A DNA stretch of 64,000 bases. Origin: Physcomitrium patens. Its lineage: Eukaryota; Streptophyta; Bryopsida; Funariales; Funariaceae. The position numbers were made by a program, and so were the translations under genes. The notes under the pieces were generated by a model. The model had not been told where the DNA came from. It did no database searches and worked only from the letters and a program-made list of their open reading frames with translations. Below are positions 3,282 through 57,080 of the stretch, piece by piece. The stretch's first letter is position 1; each line of letters starts with the position of its first letter. The DNA is taken from positions 23,593,244-23,657,243 of the forward strand of contig NC_037254.1 in NCBI RefSeq assembly GCF_000002425.4, written 5' to 3'.

Positions 3282-3286
3282 ATAAT
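3282..3286. repeat. target-site duplication ATAAT, left copy
   Basis: ATAAT lies immediately before the 5' LTR of the 3287-9620 element and is matched by ATAAT at 9621-9625, directly after the 3' LTR. Five bases is the usual length for Ty3/gypsy integrase. Confidence 0.93.
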
Positions 3287-3608
3287 TGTCACGGACATAC
3301 ATATAATTACCTATATGAATAGATAAAAGTATGTAAAAGTAGGTTAATTGTGTAATATCTTCTAAAAAAGCTTCTTAGAAGCTTCATAGACGCTGCTTTG
3401 ACTTTATAGGAGTCTATAGTTGACTTTTAGGTTAGAAACTTGGTCAACAAGTTAGCCATGTGCCACGCATGTTGGAAGCTTAAAGAACAAGCTAACTACG
3501 TGGTCCATCCATAGAAAACTTGCCTTGCAAGCAAAGGCATGTGGCCTAGAAAGTCAACATATATTGGAGGTCTTATAGAACATCGCCACGTGGCTTCTAG
3601 TTAGATAG

Positions 3609-3640
3609 TATATATAGAGGCAAGAGTGAAGCCCTCTTCA
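3609..3640 (+). promoter_or_regulatory. LTR promoter: TATA box and predicted transcription start
   Basis: TATATATA at 3609-3616 is the only strong TATA element in the second half of the LTR. Counting 31 nt from its first T gives A3640, preceded by C (a CA pyrimidine-purine initiator), which fits plant TATA-to-start spacing. RNA starting there would begin ACTCTTGTCAA, the exact complement of the primer-binding site at 3819-3829. The relic LTR at 53994-54549 keeps the same 31-nt spacing on the minus strand. The start site is predicted, not measured. Confidence 0.72.
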
Positions 3641-3646
3641 CTCTTG
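3621..3646 (+). repeat. perfect inverted repeat across the LTR start site
   Basis: CAAGAGTGAAG (3621-3631) and CTTCACTCTTG (3636-3646) are exact reverse complements separated by CCCT. The right arm covers the predicted start at 3640. The same stem with a different 4-nt loop occurs in the relic LTR at 54164-54189, and a partly decayed form lies near 56135-56160. The left arm shares CAAGAGT with the primer-binding site. Confidence 0.85.
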
Positions 3647-3818
3647 TCAACTCCTTTCTTGCTTCTAGTCTAGTTTCAAGGGTCTCTAGTTTTCTTGTAT
3701 TTTGGCAATAGCCATTCCAGTTTCTTTCTTAATATACATATTTCTATTTTGTCCTATTTCTTTTTGAAAAAAGTCTCACTTACTCTTTAGCTTTCATCGA
3801 GTTCTTGTCCCTGACAGA

Positions 3819-3829
3819 TTGACAAGAGT
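3819..3829 (+). promoter_or_regulatory. primer-binding site, candidate self-priming type
   Basis: TTGACAAGAGT begins two bases after the LTR end (CA + GA) and is the exact reverse complement of LTR bases 3640-3650, where the RNA is predicted to start. The 2-nt gap matches the two bases normally removed by integrase 3'-end processing. Tf1 of fission yeast primes minus-strand synthesis with the first 11 nt of its own mRNA paired to such a site; that this moss-type element does so is inference. A weaker tRNA-iMet-like match (TATCAGAGC, 3840-3848) lies 23 nt from the LTR. Confidence 0.7.
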
Positions 3830-4028
3830 ACACTTACAATATCAGAGCTTTGTCTTTTCTTGATTAAGAGTGGATTACCCTTTTTTCTTGATAAGACATA
3901 AGCGCATTAGAAGTTGCGGATTACCCTCTTTTAAACTGATATTGTTCTTAGTATTTTCTTTGTTATCAATTCCTCTCTTTTATTTGTTTTGAGCGTTGTT
4001 AGACATCTTCTCTTTTCTAAGTGCTACT

Positions 4029-5036
4029 ATGGCAGAGCTTGTTGAAATGAAGAGTGCAATGGCACAGATGCAAGAACAATTGAGGGAGTTAATGCTTGCG
4101 ATGCATCAACTCAATTTACCACCACAAGGAGCAACAAGAATGGTAGGAAGTGAAGATATAGAGATGATTGGGGCTGCTTCAACATCTGCACCAAACCATG
4201 TCCCTTCTCCCAGAATGGAACACCCTTCGAGTGTTAGAGAACCGAGAGTTGCCTTGCCCGAGAAGTTTGATGGTACAAGATCCAAGTTTCGAGGATTCAT
4301 CAATCAGGTCCAACTAGTGATTGAACTTCAACCCCAGAGCTATCCAACTCCAGGGTCACAAGTAAGATTCATTGGTACACTTCTTTTAGGTTCAGCATTG
4401 TCATGGTTTTCATCTTTTCTTGAACGACGAGATCCAATATTGGATAATCTGGAGGCTTTTTTGGCGGAGTTTCGATCCATGTTTGGAGAACATGATGCAA
4501 TTCGTGTTGCAACCAACAAGATCCGTATTTTGCGACAAGGCAATCAATCAGTAACATTATATGCTTCGCAATTTCGACAACTTGCAACTGATATCAAGTG
4601 GGATGATGCCGCACTTGTGAGTCAATTTCTCTACGGATTACAATATGAGGTAAAGAAATTGATGCTTAATTTACCTGATCCTCAAACATTGAGTCAAGCA
4701 ATTGACTTTGCTGTGAAGTGCGACAATCGACTTTTTGAATTTCGATCCGAGAGTCGCACAAGTGGGCCTCAACGTTACTACAATTCAATGGCAACACCGA
4801 CGTCTCCTCAACACATACCTTCGGAAGTAGAGGATATGCAAATTGATGCGGTACGTTTCAAACCTCTTACTGAGCAAGAAAAGTCTCGTCGTCGACAAGA
4901 AGGATTGTGCTTATATTGTGGAGAACCTAAGCACACTGCTCAACATTGTCCAAAGAAGCGACGTAACTACAAAATGAGGAGTACGGCTGTCAAAGAAGAC
5001 AGTATGTCGGAAAACGAGTACGTCCAGCTACAATAG
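4029..5036 (+). CDS. gag: Gag polyprotein of the lineage I chromovirus
   Basis: Encodes the capsid/nucleocapsid protein that packages element RNA. The first ATG in the frame is 4029, giving 335 residues; the frame is open further upstream (to about 3996) but has no earlier ATG. The N-terminus (MAELVEMKSAMAQMQEQL) looks coiled-coil. A retrotransposon-Gag capsid region follows (FDGTRSKFRGFINQVQ, GTLLLGSALSWF, FLYGLQYEVKKLM, LPDPQTLSQAIDFA). One CCHC zinc knuckle (CLYCGEPKHTAQHC) sits at residues 294-307. The ORF is uninterrupted, unlike pol. It ends TAG at 5034-5036. The pol frame is -1 relative to gag and is open from 4967, so the two overlap by about 70 nt. A leader of about 390 nt separates the predicted RNA start from the ATG. 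Confidence 0.93.
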   Translation: MAELVEMKSAMAQMQEQLRELMLAMHQLNLPPQGATRMVGSEDIEMIGAASTSAPNHVPSPRMEHPSSVREPRVALPEKFDGTRSKFRGFINQVQLVIELQPQSYPTPGSQVRFIGTLLLGSALSWFSSFLERRDPILDNLEAFLAEFRSMFGEHDAIRVATNKIRILRQGNQSVTLYASQFRQLATDIKWDDAALVSQFLYGLQYEVKKLMLNLPDPQTLSQAIDFAVKCDNRLFEFRSESRTSGPQRYYNSMATPTSPQHIPSEVEDMQIDAVRFKPLTEQEKSRRRQEGLCLYCGEPKHTAQHCPKKRRNYKMRSTAVKEDSMSENEYVQLQ

Positions 5037-8000
5037 GGACCGTGCGGCTGGAATCTTGTACAACTTCTAATAAAGGTCCTATCCTCTTCTCAAAACCATC
5101 TCCTTGTTTTATAATAGATGTGCGTTTAGGACCTAATAATTACAAAGCCTCTGCCTTGGTAGATTCAGGAGCCTCATCTTGTTTTTTAGATGAAGAATTT
5201 GCTAGATGTCATAGAATATCATTAATACAAAAAACTAAACCTGTACACATAGAAGTCATAGATGGTCGTCCGTTGTCTTCTGGAGATGTAACTCACGAAA
5301 CACTTCCTGTAGATGTAGTAATAAATGGTCATAGTAGTTGCGTAATTTTTAATATAATTAGATCTCCCTCTAATCCAGTAATTTTAGGCTTATCATGGTT
5401 AGAAAAGTATAATCCTCGAATAGATTGGATTTCTCGTAAACTTGATTTTCCTCAGAGCATTAGTAACAGTTCTATTAACCAAGTAAAAAACCATGAGTCT
5501 AGTATAGTAAAACTCACACCTATAGGTGCAAAAGCATTTATACACGCAGCAAAAGAAGGATCAACTTTTTCTATTTATGCTGCACCTATTTCTGAAAGCG
5601 TAAAGACTTCAAGTGGCATTCCAAGTCAATATCAGGATTATCAAGACGTTTTTGAGAAAAAGAATGCAGATATTCTTCTTGAGCATCGCCCATACGATTG
5701 TTCAATCGATCTCAAGGAAGGAACTCAGCCACCATTTGGACCAATTTACAGTATATCGCAAGATGAGTTGGCTGAACTCAAGACATATATTGACGAGAAT
5801 TTAGCGAAGAATTTCATACGCCATTCAAAATCTCCAGCAGGAGCTCCAATTTTATTCGTAAAGAAAAAAGATGGATCTTTACGAATGTGTGTTGACTATC
5901 GAGGACTCAACAAGATCACAATCAAGAACAGGTATCCATTACCTTTGATATCAGGACTCCTTGACCAGTTAAATCAAGCTAAGATCTATACAAAAATAGA
6001 TCTAAGAGGAGTATATAATCTAGTACGGATCAAAGAAGGAGATGAATGGAAGACTGCGTTTCGAACCAGGTACGGGCATTTTGAATATAATGTCATGCCT
6101 TTTGGACTCACGAATGCACCATCTGCTTTTCAACATCTCATGAATGATGTATTTCGTGAATTCTTAGACAATTTTGTCATCTGCTACCTAGACGATATCC
6201 TGATTTATTCTAAGAATGTTGAAGAACATGAAATACATGTTCGTCAAGTATTACAAAAACTCAGAGATGCAGGATTGTACGCCAAGATGGAAAAGTGTAT
6301 ATTTCACACTACTCAAGTTGACTTTTTAGGATACATCATTTCAAATGATGGTCTTATGATGGATTCTAAGAAAGTCCAAACAATCATGGATTGGAAGATT
6401 CCAAAGACTGTGAGAGATGTCCAATGTTTCTTGGGATTTGCGAATTACTATCGGATCTTCATCAAAGACTTCTCACGAGTTGCAGCTCCACTTACACGCT
6501 TGACTAGTAAAGATAAATTCCAATGGAATCAAGAAGCGGAAGCAGCATTTGAAGCCTTGAAGACATCGTTTGTCTCTCCACCAGTCTTATATCGTGTTGA
6601 TTTTTCCAAGGCATTTTTTATGGAAACAGACGCATCAGATTTTGCCTTGGGTGCAGTTTTTATCACAAATGGGAACAGATGACAAACTTCATCCGATAGC
6701 TTTTCATTCAAGAAAATTCTCAGCAGCCGAGATCAATTATGAGATCCACGATAAAGAACTTCTTGCAATCGTGGATTCCTTTCAAGAATGGCGTCATTAT
6801 CTAGAAGGTGCTTCTAGTCCAGTCACTGTGTATACAGATTACAAGAACCTCGAGTATTTCATGTCAGCACGCGTGTTGAATCGTCGTCAAGCTCGTTGGA
6901 GTATGTCTTTGTCAAGATTCGACTTCATTATCACTTATCGGCCAGGAAAACAACAAGGTTTGTCCGATGCCCTGTCTAGACGTTCTTATTTTGCACCAAA
7001 AGAAGGAGATGCAGCTTTTGAGCAACAAAGAACGGTCCTCTTGAAACCGGAGCAATTTCATCTCCGAGCAGTGAAATCAACATTGACTGTTGATTCAACT
7101 TTTCTCAAGCAAATCCAGTCCAGTATGTCCTCAGACCCTCTTGTTCATGATATCGAGAATAATTCTTCTAAGTCTCATGATTCTTCTAAGTTCGAGTTCA
7201 AGAATAATCTATTATATTTTGAAGGACGCCTATATGTTCCAGAAGGAAAAGCACGTTTGCGTGTTCTTCAAGCACGTCATGACTTTTGAGCAGCAGGGCA
7301 CTTTGGATATAATAAGACTTTGGAACTCATATCAAGAGATTTTTGGTGGCCACAAATGTGGAAGTCAGTCAAAGACTTTGTACAATCATGTGATATTTGT
7401 TCAAGATCAAAAATTCCTCGTCATCGACCTTACGGACTTCTTCAGCCATTACCTATACCAGAACAACCATGGTCTTCTGTTTCTATGGATTTCATCACAG
7501 ATCTTCCAAACTCAAGATCTTATGATTCTATATTTGTGATAGTAGATCGTTTCACCAAGATGGCACATTTTATGCCATGTACAAAATCTATCACAGGTGA
7601 AGAAACAGCTAAGCTTTTCATTGATAATATCTATCGCTATCATGGATTACCTAAAGATATCATATCGGATAGGGGAACTCAATTTGTGTCGAGATTCTGG
7701 AGGACTCTTTTCAAGATTTTAAAAGTGGACATAAAGCTATCTTCAGCTTTCCATCCTCAAACTGATGGACAAATAGAGCGCGTAAACCAAGTCTTGGAAT
7801 AGTATTTAAGGTGTACCATCAACTACCAACAAGATGATTGGACAAACCTTCTGCCATTGGCAGAGTTTGCTTATAATAATACGGTACATTCCTCCACGCA
7901 ACAAACACCTTTCTTTGCCAATTATGGCTATCATCCACGACTTGATACTTTTGATTTTTCAAAAGTTGATAATCCTGCAGCAGAAGATATGGCAAATCGG

Positions 8001-8531
8001 TTGTCAGAGTTACATGCAATAATGAAGGCGCAGTTGAAGAAAGCTCAAGAACGACAAAAGATAAATGCAGATGTATATCGTAAAGAGCAACCACAACTCA
8101 ACGTGGGTGATAAGGTATGGCTACTTCGTCGCAATATCAAGACCACTCGACCTTGTGACAAATTGGACTATCGTAGGCTTGGCCCCTTTTTTGTTTCTGA
8201 ACAGATCAACCCAGTTGCATATCGGTTACATCTACCGGAGTCAATGAAGATCCATCCTGTATTCCACGTGTCTCTTTTTGAACCATATAAGACAGTGGAT
8301 ATACAAGGAAGAAGACAAATGCCACCGCCTCCTATAGAAGTAGATAATAATGAAGAATTTGAGGTGGAAGAGATATTAGACTCAAGGCGGCGCCGAAATA
8401 AGCTGGAATATCTTGTTCATTGGTGCGGATATGATATTAGTGAGCGCACATGGGAGCCATCCAGGAATCTAGCAAATGCATCAGCTAAAGTCAAAGTTTT
8501 TCATCAACGACATCCATCAAAACCAAGATGA
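4967..8531 (+). pseudogene. pol: Pol polyprotein (protease-RT-RNase H-integrase-chromodomain) with three lesions
   Basis: The frame opens at 4967 and overlaps gag in the -1 frame; there is no ATG near 5042, where a GTG occurs. Order: aspartic protease (DSGASS, D codon 5162), RT (VDYRGLNK; YLDD box from 6185; MPFGLTNAP), RNase H (ETDASDFALG, D at 6629; DKELLAI), integrase zinc region (AAGHFGYNKT ... CDICSRSK), catalytic D7488, D7668, E7776 (35 residues between the last two), a GPF module (LGPFFVSEQ ... HPVFHVSLFEPY) and a C-terminal chromodomain (about 8352-8500: FEVEEIL, YLVHWCGY, TWEP) with F/W/Y at the cage positions. Lesions: an extra T in the T run at 6656-6660 shifts the frame inside RNase H, TGA stops it at 7287-7289, and TAG (a likely CAG-to-TAG change) at 7800-7802. 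The stop at 8529-8531 is the natural end. Confidence 0.95.
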
Positions 8532-8626
8532 AAACCTCTCTTATAAAAGAGACAAGATTGAGGCAAGATAACATTCAATTTCCTATCCTTGTTTGTAACT
8601 TCTTTGCATTTTGTGACGCTAATTAG

Positions 8627-9049
8627 ATGGAGAGCCAACAACCAGCGGATTCAACTCAAGAACCTTCGTTTGCTGACTTACCGGATGAGACATTGCGATT
8701 GTCACAACCTTCAAGACGACGCAACCGAAATGAAGACCCTTAAGAACGACATGTTCTTCCTCGAATAGATGGTGAGATACAACGCGTTTGGTATCACGAC
8801 CTTGGAAGAGATTCTCGATGTTTGGTGATATTATTGGAGATAGGAACGACTCCTGATGGTGTTTCAAATGTATTATTTGAAGGAAGTTATGAAGGCCTCA
8901 ACAGTGATCAAATAACAGGGTGGTCTTCTCGCCCTGGAATGGGACACTATCGATGGCTAAGAGGACCCATCAACTATCTTCGAAGAGAACAAAGATCAGA
9001 GTATGTAGCAAATATAATTCGCCGCATATTAGATTTTCTCAATATATAA
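8627..9049 (+). pseudogene. extra ORF between pol and the 3' LTR, unknown function, one internal stop
   Basis: Starting at ATG 8627, 95 nt after the pol stop, one frame runs for 140 codons to TAA at 9047-9049, interrupted only by TAA at 8741-8743 (CAA-to-TAA would explain it). The first 38 residues are polar with a basic patch (SQPSRRRNRNEDP). The part after the stop is a compact-looking mix (RIDGEIQRVWYHDLGRD, CLVILLEIGTTPDGV, GHYRWLRGPINYLRREQR) ending in a helical tail. I do not recognise a family. Typical chromoviruses end after the chromodomain, so this is additional coding capacity. Sense orientation, position and codon-like composition support a real gene; the internal stop and lack of homology keep confidence moderate. 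Confidence 0.6.
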
Positions 9050-9074
9050 TCACCGCTCCTCGTGGAACTCGTCC

Positions 9075-9090
9075 CTAGAAGGGGGGGTAA
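9075..9090 (+). promoter_or_regulatory. polypurine tract
   Basis: A purine-rich run with seven consecutive G (AGAAGGGGGGGTAA) ends directly against the first T of the 3' LTR at 9091. This is the expected plus-strand primer of an LTR retrotransposon. Confidence 0.9.
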
Positions 9091-9620
9091 TGTCACGGAC
9101 ATACATATAATTACCTATATGAATAGATAAAAGTATGTAAAAGTAGGTTAATTGTGTAATATCTTCTAAAAAAGCTTCTTAGAAGCTTCATAGACGCTGC
9201 TTTGACTTTATAGGAGTCTATAGTTGACTTTTAGGTTAGAAACTTGGTCAACAAGTTAGCCATGTGCCACGCATGTTGGAAGCTTAAAGAACAAGCTAAC
9301 TACGTGGTCCATCCATAGAAAACTTGCCTTGCAAGCAAAGGCATGTGGCCTAGAAAGTCAACATATATTGGAGGTCTTATAGAACATCGCCACGTGGCTT
9401 CTAGTTAGATAGTATATATAGAGGCAAGAGTGAAGCCCTCTTCACTCTTGTCAACTCCTTTCTTGCTTCTAGTCTAGTTTCAAGGGTCTCTAATTTTCTT
9501 GTATTTTGGCAATAGCCATTCCAGTTTCTTTCTTAATATACATATTTCTATTTTGTCCTATTTCTTTTTGAAAAAAGTCTCACTTACTCTTTAGCTTTCA
9601 TCGAGTTCTTGTCCCTGACA
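9091..9620 (+). repeat. 3' LTR of the lineage I chromovirus
   Basis: 530 bp, TGTCACGGAC ... CCCTGACA. Identical to 3287-3816 except A at 9493 where the 5' copy has G. Followed directly by the target duplication ATAAT (9621-9625). Confidence 0.97.
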
Positions 9621-11345
9621 ATAATCTTGCATCAATAGCATGACTTATTCTAGCTTCATCCATTAATTGTCTCTTTTGCTTAATGTTGTCAATGATAACA
9701 TCATGAAACTCCTTCTTTGCAATTCCCAAAATTTCTTTGAATGTGAATTCCACCTTAGCATTTAATATACGTTCTTTCAACACCTCTTTTAAATTTGTTG
9801 TCACTTCAGTATTAGAAAGTAGCTTATAAGTAATTGATTTGCCCTTATCTTTTGTCTCCTTTGTTTTTTCTTCTAATAATACTGAAGTATTGTTTATAGG
9901 CAATTCTTGTGAAGCCGCCTCACGAGCCTTGTCTCCTTGAGTTTACCTCTTAGAAGAATTTTCTTCTCTTGTATCATCAAAATTTTCTTGTCTCTTTTCT
10001 TCTATCAAAGATTCATGTTGACTTTTAGCAATATATGCATGAACTGAAAGAGACTCAACATGATCTTCCCAACTTGTTGTACCTTGTATTGTAGCTGCAG
10101 TCCTCAATAACGCTTCTCGAGGTAATTTTCCTTTTTGTATTGTGGAAATGGCAGAAGCCCAAAATTCACTAGTTTCTATACTTCCACCAAAGTCATCATC
10201 TACTCTAGCACCATAACTTGTACTTTTTTGTATTGCTATTCTATGTTCTATTAAATAATCTTGAATCAATGCTCTCATACCTCCTTTGCCAAAATTGGTT
10301 TGAAGAAGTTCCTTTGTATCCTTTAAAGCAATCTTTTCATCTTTTTAGTAAATAACTTCTTGCTGTACCACATTATTAAATTCACTGCAATCCTTCCTAG
10401 TATGTAAAGCGTCATCACACTAGATACATCTTTGTACATACTCTTATTTTGAAACATTCTTCAAATTGTTTGTAAAAGTATTTTCTTTAAGTCTTGCCAA
10501 TTTGATTTGAAGATCTCACATTCCACATATAATTTCTTCAATCCCCATATCTACTTTCTTTGATAAAGATGTTGAAGGTTGAACAGTAGGCATTGTTGGT
10601 CGTGTTGTATGTACTAGAATTTTATGTGCTTGTACTACTTTTAGAATATTACTCCTATCTTTCGTCCTTTCTCTTTTTAAAAGCAAATCCACTGTATTTT
10701 TAATATTTTTCTATTTTGTTGTCAATCCTTCATCTTCTTCTTTCTCTTTAAGAAGCAACTCTAATTTTTCTTGTAATTCTCCATCAGCAGCTTGAAGAAA
10801 TAATTCAACCTTGTTCGGCTCTAATGTCAATTTTTCTACCTTCGATAATTGAGAATACTGCCTCTCAAATTCTCTTAGTAGCTCTGTTGCTTATAAATTC
10901 TTATTAAGTTGCTCAATCCATTCTAGAAATAATTTCTTAGTAACATGATCAGTGTCCTCCAAGAAATATTTGTCTTTTAATGTATGTGAAAAAATCTCCC
11001 ATGAATTTCTATAATGCTCCATAATTGATGTAATATGCTCTTTTATCTCCAATATCATGGCAAGTCCAAATAATTCAACCATCTTCTTCTCAAAAACTCA
11101 ATTTAATTCCATTTCCCGAATATAACATCTTAAATACTTTGAAATATCCCTTCCATCAAATTGATCAATTTTATTGCAATACTTTAGTTGCTAAAGCTTC
11201 CTTGCGATCATTGCTTTGTGGTTGCTGTATAAATAATGATAAGGCTTGAAACATACTAGCAACAGATGGATCCATGTGTATACCTTGTCTTTTAGAAGAA
11301 ATCCCAGCAGAAGCTCTATTTGAAGCTCTTCTATTTTGAAGGAAC
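9621..11345 (-). mobile_element. Ty3/gypsy relic, lineage II: gag half
   Basis: Continuation of the relic at 1-3286, upstream in its own reading direction. Minus-strand open pieces: 9598-9903 (LKEVLKERILNAKVEF, FKEILGIAKKEFHDVIID, the linker ahead of the protease in this lineage), 9943-10278, and 10891-11082. At about 10400-10440 a nucleocapsid-type knuckle reads C-x2-C-DDAL-H-TRKD-C with a stop where a tryptophan codon (TGG to TAG) is likely. Further right are charged helical stretches. The right edge near 11345, beside a C7 run and poly-T, is not precisely defined; no LTR was recognised there. Confidence 0.72.
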
Positions 11346-35589: not shown

Positions 35590-36063
35590 ACATATATATT
35601 TATTCAAAAATTACTTATATGATTAGATAGAAATAGATAAAAGTAAATTAATTTTCAAGTATCTTCTAAACAAGCTTATTAGAAGCTTCATAGATTCAAT
35701 TTTGACTTTATATATGTTTATAGTTGATTAATAGGTTAGAAACTTAGTCAATAAATTAATTATATGTCATACGTATTAGTAACTTATGGAATAAGCTAAC
35801 TATGTAGTGCCTATATAGAAAACTTGCCTTGGAAGTTAAGATATGCGCATTGCAAAGTCAACATATGTTGAAGGTCTTATAGAACATTGCCATATAGCTT
35901 CTAGTAAGATAATATATATGGAGGCAAGAATAAATCCTTTTGTACTCTTATCAACACCTTTTTAGTCTTTAATCTCACTTTAAGGCTTTCTAATATTTTT
36001 GTTATTGGCAATAGTCATTCTAGTTCAATATATTATTATTTTTGAGTGACTTTCTAATCTTTA
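35590..36063 (+). repeat. decayed lineage I LTR, truncated
   Basis: Aligns with most of 3287-3790: TATCTTCTAAACAAGCTTATTAGAAGCTTCATAG, TTAGAAACTTAGTCAA, AGAAAACTTGCCTTG, TCTTATAGAACATTGCC and a TATATATGGAGGCAAG TATA region. Most differences are C-to-T or G-to-A. It stops at about 36063, where repeat D begins. No gag follows, so it is a solo or truncated LTR. Confidence 0.82.
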
Positions 36064-37090
36064 TGAGTAATGTAAGTCATCAAATTAACTCACTAGTTGT
36101 TTTAGGACAAAAGAATGTATATATAGTGCCAAAATTAAAATTTGTAGGTGAATATATGCTTAAAAGATATTCAATGAAGAAGAATAGTATTAGTGGAGAA
36201 GAAATAGAGTCTTAGTAAGTCTTGGAGGCAATTATTTCATTTGGTTTAGGAATTTTACTTATTGTCGAGTAGTGAGGATTAATTATTAAGGTCAATATTT
36301 ATATTGGCCTTCTATTTATACATATTACTTATAAGAAAAACTATAAATATTAATTAGTAATTAAAAGAATCATCAGAAAGAACCTCATGTTTTTTTAGTT
36401 TGTTATATAAATAGTAGGATTTATAGTAAATTTAAATTGATTTTATTACTATAAAAATCATCAAGATAAGAAATTATATTCTTAAACTAATTTTAGTATT
36501 ATAGAATTATTATAGAAATTTTAAAATTTATCTAGAATTTATTTATAATTTTTTAGGAATTTTTAGAGCAATTTCTAAGACTTAGGTAAAAATAAATTTT
36601 ACCACTTTGGGAGCCATTATGACAAAATAGAGCAAGATTTGAAAGCCACAACAGGCTTCCAGGCTAATTGGGTGTTTTTAAACACAATGATGGAGTCAAA
36701 AATTTAAAATTATGGAGTTTACTAGTAGAAAATAAGAGAACTAGTAGCTAGTGTTGTCCTTGTAAGGAGGGAGGTGCATAAGTCCTATATAGGTTGTAGC
36801 ACCTTGAAGGTAGTGAGGAAGCTAGGACTAAGGCCTCATGGCCTGTCTTAAGAACCCATATACACTACTTGTGAGTCTTGGAGAGGCTTAAAATGGTGAT
36901 CTCTTAAGCAAGTTATTCTTGAGGTAAAAAATTATTTTCTTAACTCTTCATTTATTTACTTGTTATCTTTCAAACCTTCATAACTTACTCATAATAATTC
37001 GGATTTATATGTTTCTTACACCATTGAAAAGATAAAAAAATCACCTTTTTAAAAATATATTTTTTAATTTTAAACTTCTAAAAACTTTTT
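36064..37090 (+). repeat. repeat D, copy 2
   Basis: Same-orientation match to 27636-28660. It abuts the truncated lineage I LTR on the left, so it probably inserted into or recombined with it. No coding content. Confidence 0.7.
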
Positions 37091-37249: not shown

Positions 37250-40235
37250 GTTTTTATATTGCATCATGGATAGAATAGCCTTTTCAAAGGACTTTGTATT
37301 CAAGTTGTAGATATCTATTACCATGACAAAGGTAGCAATGCTCCAAAATGTTGTCTATTTTATACTTTTGTTGATCATCAATCACAATTGATGGTGGTTG
37401 TTGATGTTGGTCTAAACAGTGTCTTAGTTTTGTATGAAACTCTTTGAATAGCAAAACATGGAAGATCAAATAGAACCAAATATGTGGCAGAAGCTAGAAA
37501 TAGCATGCAACATCAGAAATTATTGCAAAAATTTGGAAAGGTCCGAGCCATCAAGGTATCAGCTTCCAAACTTAAATTGATATAGCAAGTAGAAAGTTAG
37601 TATTAGAAAGTAATATCTAGTCACCTTTCCGGAAGGTCTTATTTTGCTAGTGGTTATCCGCATACTGCTTCTGTCGATTCTGTACAGTTTGAAGGGGTTA
37701 GGAAGAGGACGAACTTTTTTGGAAGAATATAAGATCCTTAATTATAAGTAGATTTTAAGAAGTACAATATTATCCAAATGAAGTTAAATATAAAAGAATA
37801 GCCAAAGGCTAAGTATAAAATTTAGACTAATTTCTTTTTGATGCTAAAAAGTACCCAATTTCTAACTCAAATCTTAAATTCAAACCTTATCTTATTAAAT
37901 TACCTATAGTTTATTTACTACTTATTTAATCCAAAAAAATTTAACTTATTGAGCTTAATTCAAGCTTCAAATTTAAAAATTTTAAACTTTATGAAAAAAA
38001 AATTGAAAAAATGAGAGCCAAATTAAAATAAAAAAAAATTACTACTTACTACAATTGCTACCTTTAAAACTCCCCTTTACAAATTAGCTTAGATCTCCTT
38101 CATTATAGCTCTTCTTTTCTCTTCCTAAGGCTTCTTGAAAAGTTGATAATAAGCTCTAGCTTATTTCAAATCTTGAAAATAAAAAGAAGACAATCCAATA
38201 AATGGTATAGAAAGCACCAAACTAGTATTGAATTTTATCACTCAAAAACTCCAAAAAACCTCCATCCATAAATTCATGTGAATCTCCCTCATTATAGCTC
38301 TTCTTCTTACATAAAGTAACTTATTGAAAAACTAACAAAAAGATCTAAATTCTTTTAGAATTTAGAATAAAAAGATAAAAATTGAAGAAATACAATAGAA
38401 AATTAATTACTCTCTAAATATCTTTGATATACTTAAATTAAGTGCATCATGACAATAATATCATGCTTCTTCAAAATAGTTGTAAGCTTTTGTATAAACT
38501 ATTTCGTTGTTGGATTGTTGGTGTTAGTTGAACAATAGAGAGTTGTTGATAAATATTAAAGAAGAATGGTGAATGACTAGTACTTCCTTGAATACTTTTA
38601 TTGTAAGCAAATTACAATGGTATCAAATATTCATCTCAATCATTATAGTGAACCACCATAAATACCTAAAGCATATCTTCGAAGGTTTGATTTATACACT
38701 TACATTGTCCATCTATTCAAAAATGAAAGATTATAGATATCACAAGTTATATGTCTAATAGCTCAAACAAGGTTCAGCAAAAACTTTCCATAAAGCATAG
38801 ATTCTGATCTAAAATTATGACACAAGATAATCTATGGTGACCAAACATAGTATTAAAGAAGATCCATGCAAGTCATGGAATATCAATATTAAATTACACC
38901 ATAGTCAAGTAAAATTGCTTTAACAGTTTGTCCAAAAAGACAGCAACTATGATGTGATTATAAGGTGTCTGTAACAAATATATAATCAAGTCCATATTCC
39001 CTTCATCCCAGTATGCCATAGGTAGTGGAATTGGCTGCAATAACCTAAAAAATGTCATGTTATATACTTTATTATATTAACATGACTTGTAAGAGTATAC
39101 AAAAGCTTATATATTACGGTTCAAATCTATCCAAAATCATATTCTTGAAATTTATTCTAGAATCATTTCATGTCTTAAATGCTTAAATATTAGAATATCA
39201 TGTCTCTCTTGAAGTATGCATGTCTGGAGTATAATATTTTTACATATATAAATGTACTTTTTAAAATAGAATAAGTCATCTTTAAGACTATAATCTTGAT
39301 ATTATACATTATTCATCTTCAATTAATTTCTAACCACTTTAAAATAAGTATCTTGATGTATAGCTTTTTTCTATTCTACTTCTTTGATTAGATTTGAAAT
39401 GACACTACTAACAATAGTGATTTTTGCCTTGTCTTCCAATTTGGCCTTTAAGTCAATTTTTTATGATAAGTTGTTCAGCACAACATGTTATTGCCTTTGC
39501 TTGTATTCAAGTTGAATTTCAATAAGCTACAATTATTCTTCTCAACGAGGGTGTTGTGATTTCATATTATTTAAATATAAATTATGTAGCAGGTATTGAT
39601 GATCAATCTAAACAATCATTGGCTTTTTCAATAGATAGTATTACCACATCTTTGAGGTATATATAATTGCTAATTGTTCAAAATCATGTGTAAAATAACT
39701 GCACTTTTTTCTTCTAAGCTTATGTAATTTATATGCTATAAATTGAAGGTCTCTATCAGAGTCTTATTGAAGCACTATTGTAATAGCAAAGTCAAAAACA
39801 TCAATGTCAAGTGCACATAGAAGGTTAGGATCATACAATTATAATATTAGAGCAATAATGAGTACTTCCTTCAACCTATCAAAGGCACTTTGCTACTCCA
39901 GTTTCCATTCAACTCAGGCACCTTTCTCCAATATGCTTATCAATGAGGCAGCAATATGTACAAATTGTCAAAAAAAATGGCAATAATATTTAGCAAGGCT
40001 TAAAAAAGAGGTGACTTTAGAAGCATCCTTAGAAGTTGGTCAATCTTCCATTACTTTCATCTTATCTTGTTCCATGCACAGACCCTCAAAAGACACTACA
40101 TGCTTTAAAAAGATAACTTCTAACATCCATAGTTCACGCTTTGATTGCTTGCTAAAGAAGCAACTATTTTGTAGCTAGCATAATAATTTTCATAGGTATT
40201 ATTCATTCTCTTTAAGGATTTTATTATAAATTAGA
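37250..40235 (-). mobile_element. second chromovirus relic (lineage V, Tekay/Reina-like)
   Basis: Minus-strand pol, heavily decayed. From right to left: RT from the active-site region (YDILIYNK with one aspartate lost, about 40235-40200; FSKQSKREL; FLKHVVSFEGLCME), RNase H (about 39900-39480), integrase (zinc region about 39190-39100; MDLIIYLLQTPYNHIIV about 39030; LAWIFFNTMFGHH about 38870), GPF module (about 37560-37480) and a chromodomain remnant (37284-37469). It starts abruptly at the RT active site next to a lineage I gag-pro relic. 37570-38800 is mostly featureless decayed integrase and AT-rich DNA. Confidence 0.75.
37284..37469 (-). pseudogene. lineage V chromodomain and integrase tail
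   Basis: The open piece reads FHVLLFKEFHTKLRHCLDQH, PPSIVIDDQQKYKIDNILEH and YLQLEYKVL, matching the usual order FHVSxLK - PP(P)xxxDGxxEYEVExIL - LEYLVKWKGY of chromoviral integrase C-termini. The frame is cut before the WKGY part of the domain. Confidence 0.75.
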
Positions 40236-41410
40236 ATATCATATAACAAAAGATGGCCCTTCTTTTATTACATGCATAAAAGCTCTTGTACATATCAATA
40301 AGAATTTGAATATATTAGGCTTATCTATTTTTACTTTGCTATTAGAATTTTAGATTAAACTATAAGAAAAATTAAGGTTACAAGAAATCCAATCTATATA
40401 AAGATTATATTTTTTTAACCACAATAATCTTAAAATAATTAGATTCAAAAGAGATCTTATTATATTAAATATTACTACATTATTATAATCTTTAATTGCT
40501 ACATCTAATTGATCAATCTCATAAACAATATCTCTAGAAGATAACAAATGATCATCTATGATTTCTACATGTATGGGTTTAATTTTCTTGACTAAAGATA
40601 TTTCTTATTTTTTGACAAAGTCTTCATTTATAAAATAAGATGAGGCTCCTAATTCTAATAATATAAAGACTTTGTGATTTTTTAATCATAAATATACATC
40701 TATTATAAAATAAGGTGAAATATTTGAAGAAAAAATAAGACCTTTATTAAAAGTTGCACATAATTTCAACCACACAATCCCTATTGTAGCTAGAAAAACT
40801 CATTTTTTGATAGATTATTTTCTTTGGAAATTATGCTCTTCATTTTGTGATTGTGTTGCTTCTTTGAATAATTTTGAATAGTGTATTTAGCTTTTTCATA
40901 ATATAAGCAAAAATCTTCTTGACAACATTGAATTTTTTTCTACTTTATGAGGAGTTTAAAATGTATTGTATCAATTTGCATTAGTTTTGGCCTTAATGAA
41001 TAAGTTTCTAAAAACTTAAAAATTATCATCATTACTTAACTTTTTTTTCTTTGGCCAAGACCTTGTTCTTGACGCCTTTCAAATAATCAATTGTTGCATA
41101 TAATGGCTTGAGCAATAAATTGTTCCAAAGATTTTGCCTTTAATATTGTCAATAAAAAATCTTTGATATTATCCTTCAATCCATATCAAAATTGATAGAT
41201 AGGGGCTTTATCATTCTAGTCCATGTCACAAGCAATATTTTAGAATTTAACAATATATATGCTCGTTGACTATGATCCTTGCCATAAAGATAAAAGTTTG
41301 ATCTTTCCTACTCTTTGTCAATTATTTTCTCCAAATGTAGCCATAAACACTTCTAAGAATGAATTCAAATCATAAAGGTGTTGCAAATATTTTTTTATTA
41401 AAGATGGATT
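40236..41410 (-). mobile_element. lineage I relic Y: gag and protease only
   Basis: Minus strand: gag capsid end at about 41250-41050 (QFxYGLKDNIKDFLL, LKAKSLEQFIAQAI), a decayed knuckle region about 40900, protease about 40700-40560, and the post-protease block at 40350-40547 (FNIIRSLLNLIILRLLWLKKYNLYIDWIS, cf. the intact pol). It continues to about 40236 with the segment matching 5520-5590 of the intact element, then joins lineage V. Confidence 0.75.
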
Positions 41411-41418
41411 TGTTCTGT

Positions 41419-41706
41419 TTATTCATTAATTTGAAGATGAAAAACAAAAGTGAGCTTTATATCCATCTTTAGAATCTTGGATAGGATTCTCCAAAATCTT
41501 GATATGAATTGAATCTTCCTATCAGTTATAATATCTTTTGGTAATCCATGATAGCAATAAATATTGTCAATGAAAAGCTTAGCTATTTCTTCACCTAAAA
41601 TAGATTTTGTATATAGTAAAAAATGTGTCATTTTGGAGAAATAATCTACTATTACCAATATAGAATCATATGAACTTGAACTTAGAAGATCTGTAATAAT
41701 ATCCAT
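41419..41706 (-). pseudogene. integrase core fragment of relic X
   Basis: Open 95-residue piece: MDIITDLLSSSSYDSILVIV, AKLFIDNIYCYHGLPKDII and TDRKIQFISRFW. First and second catalytic aspartates are present, while the G of the usual DRGTQF is lost. It ends near the point where the DGQIERVNQ glutamate should appear. Very similar to 7488-7780 of the intact element. Confidence 0.85.
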
Positions 41707-42385
41707 AGAAATAGAAGACTATGATTGTTCAGATATAGGCAATGATTGAAGAAGTCCATAAGGTTGATGATGAAGAGTTTTTGATCTTGAATAAATGTCA
41801 AATGAATGTTCAAAATCTTTTACCACTTTTTACATTTGCAGCCACTCAAAATCTCTAAATATAAGCTTTAAAGTCTTATTGTATCCAAAATATCATCTTG
41901 CTAGAAAGTCATGACGTGCTTAAAGAATATATAAATGTAATTCTCTTTTTAGAATATATAAGCATCTTTTGAAGTAGATTAGGCTATTCTTGAACTCAAA
42001 TTTTAAAATATCATGAGACTTACAAGAAATATTCTTAATATCATGAACAAGAGGATTAAAGAACATACTTGATTGAATTTTTTTCACAAAGGTCAAATCA
42101 ATAGTCAATATTGATTTCATTGCTCAAAGATGAAAATGCTCTAGCTTCAAGAGGATTGTTCTTTGTTGATCAAAAGATACGTTTTTTTTTTTTGATACAA
42201 GATAAGAGCATCTAGAAAGAGCATTTAATAAACCTTCTTATTTTCTAAGTTGATATTTAATCTTGAAATCAAATCTTGATAATGACATGCTCCAACAAGC
42301 TTAGCAACGATTCAAAACATGTGCTGATGTAAAATACTTAAGATTCTTATAATCTATATTTATTATGATTAGAATACAAGCACAT

Positions 42386-43714
42386 TGTCATATGGCATGA
42401 TTTGCTATCTGAGAATACACTAGGTATGTAGCTGTAGAGAGTGTAACTTAAACCTTTATATGAATCTTGTCTTAGCTTCCAAAACTCCTTTATTTTGCAT
42501 AAAACTCAAAATATAACAAAATCCCTTCAAAACATATTTTTTCCACGAAGGGTTTTCTTTTTTTGAACTTTAGAAATTCATTACTCTTGATCTAACTATT
42601 TAATTTTTCTCAAATTTATAAAATAAGTAGATTTCATCCTTAAATTTTACCACAAAAAAAACCAATTACAAATTCACTTCCGATCTTTTGAAATCTAAGA
42701 AGCTCTAGCAGATGCTCTAAATCCTAATTTACAAGCATCCGAGCACTATTTTCTTAATATCTCAAGAATCAAATATTCAAATGTCATCAAACTTATGTAT
42801 AAAGTTTTCTAACATGAATTTACACATTTCCTGAAATTTTGAGCCAAAACCTTATCAAATTGCTCAAGATATAGCTCAAGACACAACCACTAGTAAATCG
42901 GGTCACTTACTACTCTTAGATTGCATGCGTTGAATTCAAAATCCAATAACTCCTTCAACCCAACTTGGAATCCAGCAAGCAGTATGCAAAAAGTGTAGCC
43001 ACAAAAGTACTCTCTCTAGTTGCAGTCGCCGATCCACAATTGCTATGTGTACGCGTGCGTTATGCCAAAAAGAGTGACTGTAGCTCCCAAATCAACACCT
43101 TAACTTTGAGTGCTTGTATCTCCTTCATATAAACTCCAAAACATACAAAATTTGCACCAAAACCATAGCCAAAAACCTAAACTTATTGACTCTAGCCTTC
43201 ATAGCTCGAATGGCCCCGAAAAACTAACCTTAAATCCTAATATGGCCTCGGGCAGCCTCCTCAAAGCCTATTGGTCATGATTTTTGACCAATAGGAATGG
43301 AGATTTTCATCATCCATCTCCATTCATCTATATTGGTGCCTTAATTACTCACTTTGCTTCCAAAACTCTTCTTTAATCCTTTTTCTTATAATATTTACAT
43401 AATTTATGCTCTAAACACCAAATAAAAGAACCAAAATAAGTTTTCAAAGGTCACCAATGTCTAACAAAGGTGACTCTAAATATTTAGAAGTTACTATCAA
43501 TCAAAACCAATCTTAAAAGCAATTATCAAAAGGAAATAAAAGTTATACAAATTCTATAGTAATCTTTTGAAACAAACTCTTTTCAAGATAATAATCAAAT
43601 TATATTTTAAAACCAATTAAAATCTACTAACATGGCTCTCATCATGTTACTTAATAAATTATATATTAAGTACATAATTACATTATTCTCATATAATAGC
43701 CAAAGTACAACCTA
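42386..43714 (+). repeat. X LTR-like repeat, copy 1
   Basis: About 1.33 kb inserted into the RNase H of relic X; flanking coding sequence (AGAATCTTATAATC / TTCTAGATGATGATGCCATTC) is continuous in the intact element. It begins TGTCATATGG and ends near CAAAGTACAACCTA. The flanks carry similar AAGCA/AAGCG, a possible 5-bp duplication. It holds a perfect 10-bp hairpin (43267-43276/43286-43295) built from ATTGG/CCAAT. No ORF; probably a solo LTR. Confidence 0.78.
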
Positions 43715-44282
43715 AAAGCGTTCTAGATGATGATGCCATTCTTGAAATGAATCTATAGTTATAAGAAGTTCTTTATTGTGGATCTCATAGTTAATTTTGG
43801 CTACTAAAATATTTTTGGATTAGAAAGCTATTAGACAGAGTTTATCATCTATTTCTATTTGTGACAATATTGTACCTAAAGCAAAGTTTGATGCATCTGT
43901 TTTCATAAAGAATGCCTTAAAATAGTCAATATAATATAAAATTGATGGACAAGTAAATTCTTTCTTTAAAGCAACAAATGATGCTTTGGCTTCTTTATTC
44001 CACTCAAATTTTTTTTTATAAGTCAAACATGTAAGTGAAGCTACAACTTGAAAAAAATTCTTAATAAAGATTTGATAATAATTGGCAAAGTCCCAAAAGT
44101 ATTACACATCTCTTATTATTATTAGAATCTTCTAATCTATGATAGTTTGGACCTTCTTTGGATCTATCATAAGGCCTTCATTGTAAATGATGTATCTCAA
44201 AAAGTCAAGTTGAGTAGTGTGGAATATATACTTTTCTAACTTTGCATATAATCTTGCATCTTCTAGTTTTTATAATAAACAA

Positions 44283-44745
44283 CAAAATAGCACAAAATAA
44301 GTTGACTGTACTCAAAGAGTACATTGATGAGAACTTAGCTAAGAACTTTATATACCATTCTAAAACTCCAACTGACACTCTTATCTTATTTGTGAAGAAA
44401 AAAGACAAATCTATGCAGATGTGTATAGATTATTGAGGATTCAACTAGATCACCATCAAAAATAGGTATCTTCTATCTTTGATTTTAAGAATTTTTGATC
44501 AACTAAATCAAACAAAGATCTATACAAAAATAGATCTATGAAAAGTATTTAACTTGGTTTGTATCAAAAAAAGAGATGAATAGAAGATTACTTTCCAAAC
44601 TAATATAGACATTTTGAATATAATGTTATGCCTTTTGAACTCATAAATGCACCAGTTGCTTTTCAATATCTAATGAATTATGTCTTTTGTGAGTTTTTTG
44701 ATAATTTTGTCATTTGTTATTTGGATGATATTTAAATATTTGTAA
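44283..44745 (+). pseudogene. inverted RT core inside relic X
   Basis: Plus-strand RT remnant in an otherwise minus-strand relic: LKEYIDENLAKNFIYHSKTP, LFVKKKDKSMQMCIDY, LDQLNQ and CYLDDI-type box near 44720. The minus-strand flanks hold exactly the parts that belong before (CSIDLK...PPFxPIYS, about 44760) and after (LxDARLYAKxEKYIFHT, about 44210-44275). The piece was therefore flipped in place, with loss of about 35 bp. Confidence 0.85.
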
Positions 44746-45146
44746 TAAGCTATAAATTGGTACAAATGGTGGTTGAGTTCTTTTTTGAAGATTGATGGAA
44801 CAATCAGAAGGACGATGATCCAAAAGAATATCTACATTCTTCTTTTTTAAACGTCTTAGGAATCTTGATACTCGCTAAGAATATCTCTTGATATCTTCTC
44901 AATATTAGTAATGGACGTGGCATATATAGCAAAAGATGGCCTTTCATTTGCGACATACATAAAAGCTCTCGCATACACCAATAACGGTTTAGATGTAGTA
45001 AACATATGGGTTTCTACTTACCTAGCAAGATCTTGAACCTAACTATGAAAAGAATCAAAATTGTAAGAAATCTAGTCTATCTGAGGATTATATCTTTTTA
45101 ACCATGATAATTCTAAAATAATTGGGTTAAAAAGAGACTTAATCAT

Positions 45147-52385: not shown

Positions 52386-53993
52386 ATCATATTAAATATT
52401 ATTAAACTATTATGACCACTAGTTACTACTTCTACAGGAATAGTTTCATGTGTAACATCTCCAAAAGACAATAAATATCCATCTATTATTTCTACATGTA
52501 TAGGTTTGATTTTCTTAACTAAGGATATATCTTATTTTTTGACAAAGTCTTCAACTATAAAAATAGGATGAGATTTTTAAATCCAACAAGGCTAAGATTT
52601 TGTGATTTTTCAATCTTAAACAAACTTCTATTGTAAAACAAGGTGAGGGATTGGAAGAGAGAATATGACCTATATTAGATATTGTACATGATTCTAGCCA
52701 CTTGGTCTCTATTATAGCTAGAGCAATTTATTTTTCAACACATTGTCTTCTTTGATAATCGTACTTCTCATTTTATAATTATATTATTTCTTTAGATAAT
52801 ATTGAGTAATGTGGTTATTTTCTATTCAAAATAAACATAAGCCCTCTTAACATCATCAACTCTTTTTCTTCTATATGATGGATTTAAAATGTACTGTATC
52901 AATTTGTATTGATTTTGGCCTTGATGAATAAGTTTTTGAAAACTTAGGATCTGCCATCATTATTTGATTTATTCTTTTTTATCCATATCTTTCTTCTTGA
53001 CATCTTTGAAATAATTGATTGTTACATACAATGGCTTGAGCAATAAATTGTTTCAAAGATTCTATCTTGAACATTATCAGTAATAAGTATTTGATATTAT
53101 CTTTCAATCCATATCAAAATTGATTGATAAGGGCTTTGTCATTCAAGTCCATGTCGCAAGCAAGATTTTGGGATTTAGCAGCATATATGGTAGCTGACCG
53201 TGATCCTTTCCATAAAAATAAGAGCTTGGTCTTTGCTACTCTTTCTTGATCACTTTCTTTGAATATGGCCGTAAAGACTTCTATGGGTGAATTCAATCAT
53301 AAAAGAGTCATAAATCTTTTTCTATTAAAGGTGTAAATGAAGAGAAAGCACTTCCTTATAGAAGTACACCTATGAATCCAACTTGAATAAATCCATTGAA
53401 GTATTGGAAAGGATGTAGTCTTAAACAAAGCTTTACTTGTTGCAAAAATCCTCAAAATTTTGATCTTGTTCCATCAAACTTCTCAAGCATATTAATCATT
53501 TTCCTTATCATGCTTGTAGAAGAAAAATTCCCTAGATTTGATTGTGAGGTTGATCTACTTACTTTTTTCAAGTGCACAATTTCTTATTGTATACTTTGAA
53601 TTTCTTCCATATGCATAGGTATAATACCTCCATGATTCACATTGGAAATACGTGAGACTTTTACTCTTAGAGAGTTGACAAGCTCATGAAGATTTATAAT
53701 AGTTATAAATCTATTTTTACTTTCGTTAAAAGTAACAGCTATAATTTCTCTCTCTATAGACAACTCAAACAAATTCAAATAGTTAAATTAGAAGAAGGTA
53801 ATCTGCAGCCTCTAATAAAAATTTCTACAAAGAGGGATAATCCACTCTCTTTAAGAAAAAAATTAGTGTTAGAAAATAAGATTTTTTTTAAAAAGTGGAT
53901 TATCCGTAACCTTTAAAATACAACAATAGAAGTGAAGTAATCAACTCACTTCTAAAATAAGATAGAAATAGTATATTAGCATTCTTGTCAAAC
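52386..53993 (-). mobile_element. lineage I relic X, right part: protease, gag, leader, primer-binding site
   Basis: Continues relic X after the lineage III insertion. Protease about 52650-52400, gag about 53790-52800 (53114-53296: SRSATIYAAKSQNLACDMDL, NDKALINQF; 53440-53480 matches KFDGTRSKFRGF). Then a leader and TTGACAAGAAT on the minus strand at 53981-53991, two bases from the LTR. One G-to-A change separates this from the intact primer-binding site at 3819-3829. Confidence 0.82.
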
Positions 53994-54549
53994 TATCAAG
54001 GACATAAATCTCAAAGAAAGAAAATCCTCAATATACTCTTATGTCACTGAAAAGAACTAAAAAGTCACTCAAAAATGATATAATATTGAACTAGAATGGC
54101 TATTGCAAAAAACAAGAAGACAAGAAAGTCTTAGAATAAGACTAAAGACTAGAAAGGCATTGACAAGAGTGAAGAAGGCTTCACTCTTGCCTCTATATAT
54201 ACTCTCTAACTAGGAGCTATATGGCAATATTCTATAGGACCTCTAATATGTGTTGACTTTGCTAGCCACATGTCTTAACTTGTAAGACAAGTTATCTATA
54301 TATATATATATATCACATAGTTAGCTTGTTTTATAAGCTACTATACGGAATTAACTTGTTCTACAAGCTATCAATACCTAGTTAACTTATTAACTAGGTT
54401 TTTAATCTACAAATACATCTAAAGTCAAAATTATGTCTATATAGCTTCTAGAAAGCTTTTCTAAAAGATTTTATGAAATTAATATATATTTATCTACTTC
54501 TACCTAATCATATAAGTAATTATTGGAATAAATGTACATATCCGTGATA
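53994..54549 (-). repeat. 5' LTR of relic X (minus strand)
   Basis: Reverse-orientation lineage I LTR with both termini decayed (TA...TA instead of TG...CA). It keeps TATATATA at 54194-54201, the start motif ACTCTTGTCAA (minus strand, 54170-54160) 31 nt away, and the 11-bp stem 54164-54174/54179-54189. A TA microsatellite lies at about 54296-54314. Confidence 0.88.
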
Positions 54550-54587
54550 CTATTTTTCATAGAATTCTTTTTTAGAAAAAAAAATAT

Positions 54588-56330: not shown

Positions 56331-57080
56331 CTATCTAATGTTGATTTAAGATAATCAAGTAGCCTTTCCCAAATTAAAACTTAATTTAGATAGAATCTTG
56401 TAACTTCCTAAATTTTGGACATGATTATATTTAAAGTATTAGAATTGGAATTTTTGATCCAATATATAATAAATTTTATTTTTTTTGTAATAAATAATGT
56501 AAAATATTAATTTTAATGGTTCTACTAACTGATTTGCTATCCAATTGGTATAAAATCTAAGATTAACAACCTCCAATCTTTTTTTAGGATATTCTATAAT
56601 TGAATAAATTCACAATTAAAATTGATTATTACTTGTGAACAACTGCTTTGTATAGTACAATCTTCCATAGAAGTTTGAAGAAGATTCAATAAATATACCA
56701 TAAACAAGGATAAAAGAAAAAATAAATAATTAATAAAAAAATATATGTGAATCTTTTCAACACAAGTTTTGGTGAAATTCAAGTGTTGACTTGTTTTGGA
56801 TCCTTTTCACTTACCGTCTGTTACAAACTGTCCTAGATCTAGAGAGACAGCCTGGGATAGATCTTAACATGCTGGGGTACTATGGAGATTCATGAAGTCA
56901 CAAAGATTCATCTATTAAGGAATCCAGCAGTAGGAAGTGAATGTAAACATGGGGCAATTCTAATACTCTGCTCATGCACATCGATACTGAATATTCTATG
57001 CAGGCAATGTTACAGCGTTGCCTTGAGCCACTTTTTTGAACTTCCATATGTGATCTCTCTTGGAACAATGACAACACTTC
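56331..57080. other. transition from repeats to genic DNA, no gene seen
   Basis: AT-rich to about 56800, then GC and CpG content rise. No repeat partner in the window and no convincing ORF. Confidence 0.6.

Follow-up and report, generated by a model that had tools for sequence, protein, structure and literature searches.

How does a long terminal repeat (LTR) retrotransposon begin reverse transcription when the sequence directly behind its 5' LTR offers no partner for the CCA end of a tRNA? This question is raised by the chromovirus at positions 3287 to 9620 of the window, the 64,000-nucleotide stretch of Physcomitrium patens DNA (NC_037254.1, 23,593,244 to 23,657,243) that was analysed here. 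It is likely that this element, which is probably Tcn1-like, uses the first 11 nucleotides of its own RNA to prime reverse transcription. The original prediction had proposed self-priming in the manner of Tf1 and knew of no described plant case. The proposed mechanism is likely and well supported by the pairing of the putative RNA 5' end, by compensatory change in a diverged relative and by the lack of an early TGG; the priority has to be given up, since self-priming has already been predicted for the majority of the plant Tcn1 chromoviruses of mosses and club-mosses, which are described as lacking tRNA sites (Neumann et al. 2019, PMC6317226).

Three features lie at the centre of this reading:

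3609 to 3616, plus strand: TATA box TATATATA, its first base 31 nucleotides before the primer start
3640 to 3650, plus strand: putative self-primer ACTCTTGTCAA, predicted RNA nucleotides 1 to 11, based on complementarity, folding and co-variation
3819 to 3829, plus strand: putative primer-binding site (PBS) TTGACAAGAGT, exact complement of 3640-3650

As had been claimed, positions 3640-3650 and 3819-3829 are reverse complements at 11 of 11 positions, the flanking base on each side being unpaired, and the site is separated from the LTR end by the two-base spacer GA (3817-3818). Similarly, A3640 does lie 31 nucleotides after the beginning of TATATATA (3609) and is preceded by a C (3639). From the TATA spacing we infer a transcription start at A3640 or a few bases from it. 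Based on base composition, the chance that one site matches any of seven allowed partner starts is about 3e-6. A strong tRNA match at the site had been named as one of the findings that would contradict self-priming; after the LTR there is no TGG, as required for a tRNA CCA end, until 3871, which is the only one between the LTR end and 4030. This test consisted of the search for TGG. RNA folding was predicted throughout at 37 °C and without protein. In RNA beginning at 3640, the primer is predicted to pair with the site in both the minimum free energy and the centroid structure (P=0.95). The RNA 5' end ACUCUUGUCAA, starting at or a few bases from A3640, would pair with UUGACAAGAGU just past the LTR, the RNase H of the element would cut after nucleotide 11, and the freed 11-mer would be extended into U5. 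A cut after nucleotide 11 is known for Tf1; for the moss element, we infer this cleavage as well as the priming itself.

The pairing is retained beyond the window element. All 28 distinct copies of the window family (29 rows in the copy table, L005 being the window element itself) pair at 11 of 11 positions, these copies being 97-100% identical and chosen by similarity. More diverged sequences are represented among 11 units in which both LTR and leader were compared, namely the window element, relative Q (L030/L012), five units of relative B (window 54548-53900, L021, L023, L016 and L009) and four of relative X (L018, L033, L010 and L028). Sequences with the LTR or the leader missing stand outside this count (window 35590-36100 and 55929-56360, L017:6890-6300, L013:6210-6660 and L031:1985-2260), as do further fragments in L011, L012:5432-5687, L016 and L024. 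Four of the units pair 11/11 by Watson-Crick pairs and seven pair at 8 to 10 positions. Relative Q, with 73% identity to the window LTR, carries identical 11-mers that pair 11/11. The letters of the window element's primer are kept in three of the five B units, and across the five, 8 to 10 of 11 positions form Watson-Crick pairs, with at most two G-U pairs and at most one mismatch in addition. The B unit within the window contributes the following pair:

54160 to 54170, minus strand: putative self-primer of relative B, ACTCTTGTCAA, 31 nucleotides after the TATA box at 54201
53981 to 53991, minus strand: putative primer-binding site of relative B, TTGACAAGAAT, 10/11 paired

Compensatory change is found in relative X. 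X_L018, which was read as two stretches with about 1.7 kb between them outside the reading, has LTRs that are 93% identical to each other, with CTGCC on both flanks. Its gag is 46% and the compared part of pol 69% identical to those of the window element, and the LTRs of the two align in short blocks only. The primer of X_L018 is AGTCTCGACAA and its site TTGTCGAGACT. Compared to the window element, primer nucleotides 2, 6 and 8 are changed, and all three of their PBS partners have changed to match; given three site changes, the chance of such a three-fold match is 1 in 4455. The pairing is also one base longer, extending to 12. The same co-variation at three of three positions occurs in X_L033, and within X the pairing comprises 11/11 positions in L018 and L033, 10 in L010 and 8 in L028. 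Co-variation of the two segments in other copies, which the original prediction had put forward as a check, is borne out by the diverged relative, and the near-identical copies all remain paired. A de novo scan of the retrieved loci for a TATA box, a primer and a complementary site yielded 155 places versus 47 in a reversed control, two numbers that are only roughly comparable because duplicates were removed differently. These places were mostly A-family copies or AT-rich stretches, and the sole new family member recognised by eye was X_L010.

The predicted start of transcription coincides with a further structure, the two arms of which are located as follows:

3619 to 3631, plus strand: left arm of the hairpin, 13 bp, predicted by folding and co-varying with primer and PBS
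3636 to 3648, plus strand: right arm of the hairpin, which includes primer nucleotides 1 to 9, based on folding and co-variation

The hairpin GGCAAGAGTGAAG-CCCT-CTTCACTCTTGTC (3619-3648) straddles the predicted start and has a folding z of -5.1 compared to 200 shuffles; when the LTR was mononucleotide-shuffled 500 times, a stem of at least 13 arose in two of the shuffled sequences. The left arm of X_L018 is changed at the partners of primer nucleotides 2, 6 and 8, and the stem is again 13/13 with one G-U pair. When the start of the RNA was scanned along the window element, the predicted probability of primer:PBS pairing was 0.00 at the five tested starts from 3600 to 3620, rose to 0.29 at 3622, 0.43 at 3624 and 0.88 at 3626, stayed at 0.95 at the six tested starts from 3628 to 3641, and dropped from 0.92 at 3642 to 0.13 at 3644. 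A like switch is predicted for B (from 0.00 to 0.77-0.93) and for X (from 0.00 to 0.91-0.94). The primer copy of the 3' LTR, in turn, sits in the hairpin with a probability of 0.94-0.98 in the window element and 0.96-0.99 in X. Because the predicted start lies inside the 13-bp hairpin, correctly started RNA would be without the left arm and would expose the primer. In the 3' LTR copy, and in RNA that began further upstream, the hairpin would persist. It is plausible from these models that the hairpin acts as a gate which lets the 5' copy, and not the 3' copy, serve as primer.

The inverted repeat might instead be a promoter palindrome which is bound by protein on the DNA, the primer match being a by-product. 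Its position directly downstream of the TATA box would suit such a role, as would its strong conservation, with 30 of 31 positions retained in relative B, which few other parts of the LTR match. However, a protein-bound site should be conserved in sequence, whereas in X_L018 three positions of each arm differ from the window element, and the distant PBS has changed along with them. We regard this role at the DNA level as rather unlikely, and it is the main alternative to the hairpin gate.

Downstream of the putative self-priming site, the leader contains a second segment that bears on primer use:

3837 to 3848, plus strand: CAATATCAGAGC, 9 of the 12 letters of the plant tRNA-type PBS TGGTATCAGAGC, all 12 of which are present in relative X_L018

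The core TATCAGAGC, located at 3840-3848 in the window element, is shared by X_L018 and X_L033; Q and X_L010 carry it in the form TATTAGAGC. It is thus kept in five of the 11 units, in two of them with T for C, and was found neither in any of the five B units nor in X_L028. In X_L018 (L018:2495-2463, minus strand), the self-priming site is followed, after 10 nucleotides, by the complete TGGTATCAGAGC. The tRNA that matches TGGTATCAGAGC is presumably the initiator Met tRNA. A chance origin of TATCAGAGC, which had been considered after relative B (4 of 9 letters kept), was dropped as the Q and X copies carry the segment. Further downstream, at 3871-3926, the leader repeats the motif TGGATTACCC / GCGGATTACCC, which is also present, partly changed, in the X and Q leaders.

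It might be speculated that the tRNA-type segment is a relic, an account that is compatible with present self-priming. An ancestor primed by tRNA-Met would have switched to self-priming as a sequence at the end of U5 became complementary to the RNA start, with the LTR being shortened by about 20 bases. The order of LTR end, self-priming site and tRNA-type site, which is seen in X_L018 and, the letters being altered, also in X_L010, X_L033, Q and the window element, is in line with such a history. On the other hand, all 12 letters are present in a single one of the 11 units, and the 9-nucleotide core could serve another function of the leader. In addition, Tf1/sushi relatives outside plants are reported to be self-primed (PMC6317226), so that the tRNA ancestry would have to be local or acquired by exchange. 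A switch of this kind appears possible but doubtful, and the segment may be what is left of it or may provide an auxiliary contact for a tRNA.

Priming by initiator tRNA-Met on TATCAGAGC (3840-3848; TGGTATCAGAGC in X_L018), alone or besides self-priming, we consider quite improbable, even though published work names TGGTATCAGAGC as the tRNA-complementary PBS of plant elements (PMC7215508, PMC2576258) and the core is kept across families with barely alignable LTRs, in X_L018 with 12/12 letters. At the position where a tRNA CCA end would require TGG, the window element reads CAA. Its LTR ends 20 nucleotides upstream of the segment, whereas priming from downstream would be expected to lengthen the LTR up to it. 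Both 3' LTRs that were read, those of the window element and X_L018, end in ...TGACA, followed by the flank with matching duplications, and since these two LTRs end well before the segment, priming probably does not take place there. That the segment was not found in the five B units and X_L028 likewise argues against tRNA priming. Chance as the source of the self-complementarity can practically be dismissed: about 0.5% of dinucleotide-shuffled LTRs (96 of 20,000) do hold, within 30 nucleotides past the LTR, a complement of at least 11 nucleotides to some place in the LTR, but the position at the predicted start, the conservation in B and Q and the compensatory change in X all speak against a coincidence.

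Several observations nevertheless weigh against self-priming and its gating by the hairpin. In six of the 11 units, primer and PBS are truly mismatched at one or more positions, and the hairpin, mismatch-free in four units, has 1 to 4 mismatches in the other seven; the appearance of the units with mismatches suggests that they are decayed. Nine units have a TATA-to-primer distance of 31 (five units) or 32 (four), whereas two B units deviate with 29 and 38. In X, pairing is sensitive to the exact 5' end, its predicted probability being 0.73 for RNA from primer nucleotide 1, 0.39 from nucleotide 2 and 0.00 from nucleotide 3. The leader RNA as a whole barely beats its shuffles (z of -1.46 for 196 nucleotides and -0.39 for 221). 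The further duplexes of the Tf1 'pretzel' (PMC10085805) are weak in the window element, where the best candidates comprise 5-7 bp; longer candidates in relative B overlap each other. The presence of TATCAGAGC downstream leaves room for a past or present role of a tRNA. Finally, SM-Tcn1 of Selaginella is reported to have neither a tRNA nor a self-priming site (PMC2864245), in contrast to the window element with its putative self-priming site.

Combining self-priming with the hairpin and the leader segment, it might be hypothesized that the element is a start-gated self-primer, in which a 9-nucleotide sequence has two exclusive partners, the left arm and the PBS, the three segments co-evolve and the leaders record a switch between tRNA priming and self-priming. 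A start inside the hairpin would remove the left arm and free the 5' copy, the 3' copy and misinitiated RNAs would be locked, and the leaders of the group would carry the remnant of an initiator-tRNA-Met site, complete in one copy. This combined reading is tentative, and we would sooner expect parts of it to fail than all of it to hold. If it is true, a hairpin that reads the start would explain why the 5' primer copy is used over the identical 3' copy, a choice that, to our knowledge, the Tf1 model leaves open. The tRNA-type remnant, in turn, is relevant to the question of how retroelements switch from one primer to another.

The element in which these sequences reside is organized as follows:

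3282 to 3286, plus strand: left target-site duplication ATAAT, the right copy at 9621-9625
3287 to 3816, plus strand: 5' LTR, TGTCACGGAC...CCTGACA, with one difference to the 3' LTR
4029 to 5036, plus strand: gag (Retrotrans_gag, Ty3_capsid), open, ending with TAG
5042 to 6682, plus strand: first open piece of pol with protease, reverse transcriptase (RT) and the start of RNase H, in a frame different from gag
6561 to 7289, plus strand: open piece with the remaining RNase H, in a further frame after a frame change relative to the first pol piece
7290 to 7802, plus strand: pol piece bounded by in-frame stops on both sides, with integrase zinc finger and core
7803 to 8531, plus strand: pol piece with integrase C-terminal SH3 (Tf2-1-like) and chromodomain
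9091 to 9620, plus strand: 3' LTR, with the primer copy at 9444-9454

The LTRs of 530 bp each differ by a single mismatch (3689/9493) and ATAAT is present on both flanks, indicating that the insertion is recent. Pfam matches (gag, protease, RT, RNase H, integrase, Tf2-1-like SH3 and Chromo) reveal the Ty3/gypsy order of protease, RT, RNase H and integrase plus a chromodomain. This copy is broken by the pol frame change near 6.6 kb and by two in-frame stops, the last bases of which are 7289 and 7802. From 4967 on, the pol frame is open, and it overlaps gag, which has TAG as its stop, by 70 nucleotides in another frame (4967-5042); in relative C, the gag match extends to 40784 and the pol match begins at 40775, with a frame offset as in the window element. 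An interrupted extra reading frame at 8625-9049, between pol and the 3' LTR, had no Pfam match at E 0.01. A 261-bp core of the window family is matched at 100% (rounded) in all 40 scored places, out of 1132 first-look candidates from the same genome. The window element is, as judged from these sequences, a young, high-copy chromovirus of the moss P. patens. That the host would be a plant had been predicted correctly, as is evident from two joined open frames at 59583-61357, which are 99% identical over 100% of the query to a P. patens phosphate transporter. The transporter also rules out a fungal source of the DNA, which the AT-rich sequence and the gag had at first suggested.

In an unrooted RT tree of 94 rows (the window element and 93 of 120 listed matches, with no row labelled Tcn1, Tf1, sushi, Tekay, CRM, Reina or Galadriel), the window element sides with 8 amphibian and 79 other rows, while 4 angiosperm and 2 Closterium rows are set apart by a branch of length 0.75 with an SH-aLRT of 99. 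Among the rows on the side of the window element are those from Leptobrachium, Pleurodeles and Phyllobates, which we take to be sushi/V-clade elements of vertebrates and which thus belong to another host kingdom. A search of viral contigs with the RT returned no relative. Alignment with the CDYL chromodomain places F (for Y), W and Y at what we take to be the aromatic-cage positions, suggesting a Group I chromodomain with an aromatic cage. Such a chromodomain is described for 95% of Tcn1 elements (PMC6317226), and P. patens elements have been assigned to the Tcn1 clade (Novikova et al. 2010, PMC2864245). Based on the split in the RT tree, the host and the chromodomain, the window element is probably Tcn1-like, that is, related to Tf1/sushi.

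Remains of related elements are found elsewhere in the window. At 54415-54722, two B-type LTRs are arranged head to head with 22 nucleotides between the repeat arms; a sequence that also occurs around 42385-43220 splits one of the two at about 54721-55928. The region 38678-45146 holds two related chromovirus remnants end to end, the pol of one followed by the gag-pol of the other, the first being partly inverted and no LTR match occurring between the two.

With respect to known systems, the window element is not the first plant case of predicted self-priming; new here are the compensatory changes seen in an element family of a plant, the hairpin that straddles the predicted start and co-varies with the primer, and the remnant of a tRNA-type site. 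In the accessible open-licence literature on self-priming in plants, chromoviruses, lycophytes and mosses, supplements aside, neither a start hairpin nor paired self-priming and tRNA-type sites were found. The accounts at hand of Tf1 and Tj1 make no mention of a hairpin straddling the start, which the window element has, and those of the plant Tcn1 clade (PpatensLTR and SM-Tcn1) mention neither a start hairpin nor a tRNA-type segment. Outside plants, Tf1 of Schizosaccharomyces pombe, which has a chromodomain as does the window element (PMC10085805), is the founding case of self-priming, and Tcn1 of Cryptococcus has been proposed to self-prime (PMC7175516). Tj1 of S. japonicus has a PBS complementary to the RNA 5' end (PMC4600332), like the predicted pair in the window element. 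Among plant elements, self-priming is also predicted for the TAR lineage (Houba, Osr-1), which belongs to another superfamily, Ty1/copia (PMC6317226). Further similarities exist to SM-Tcn1, in which gag and pol likewise form separate reading frames (PMC2864245), and to PpatensLTR of the plant Tcn1 clade, which shares its host, Physcomitrella, with the window element. RLG1, the most abundant transposable element of P. patens, is a gypsy element with a chromodomain that is expressed in protonema (PMC7466625). The window family, which likewise has a high copy number, is probably RLG1, a likeness by description and not by sequence, and its members would then be transcribed in P. patens. As predicted here for the window element, the majority of the plant Tcn1 clade is predicted to self-prime; in the work cited here, self-priming in plants is a prediction from complementarity (PMC6317226), and the co-variation between two families of a laboratory moss, of which one is young and has a high copy number, provides a testable case.
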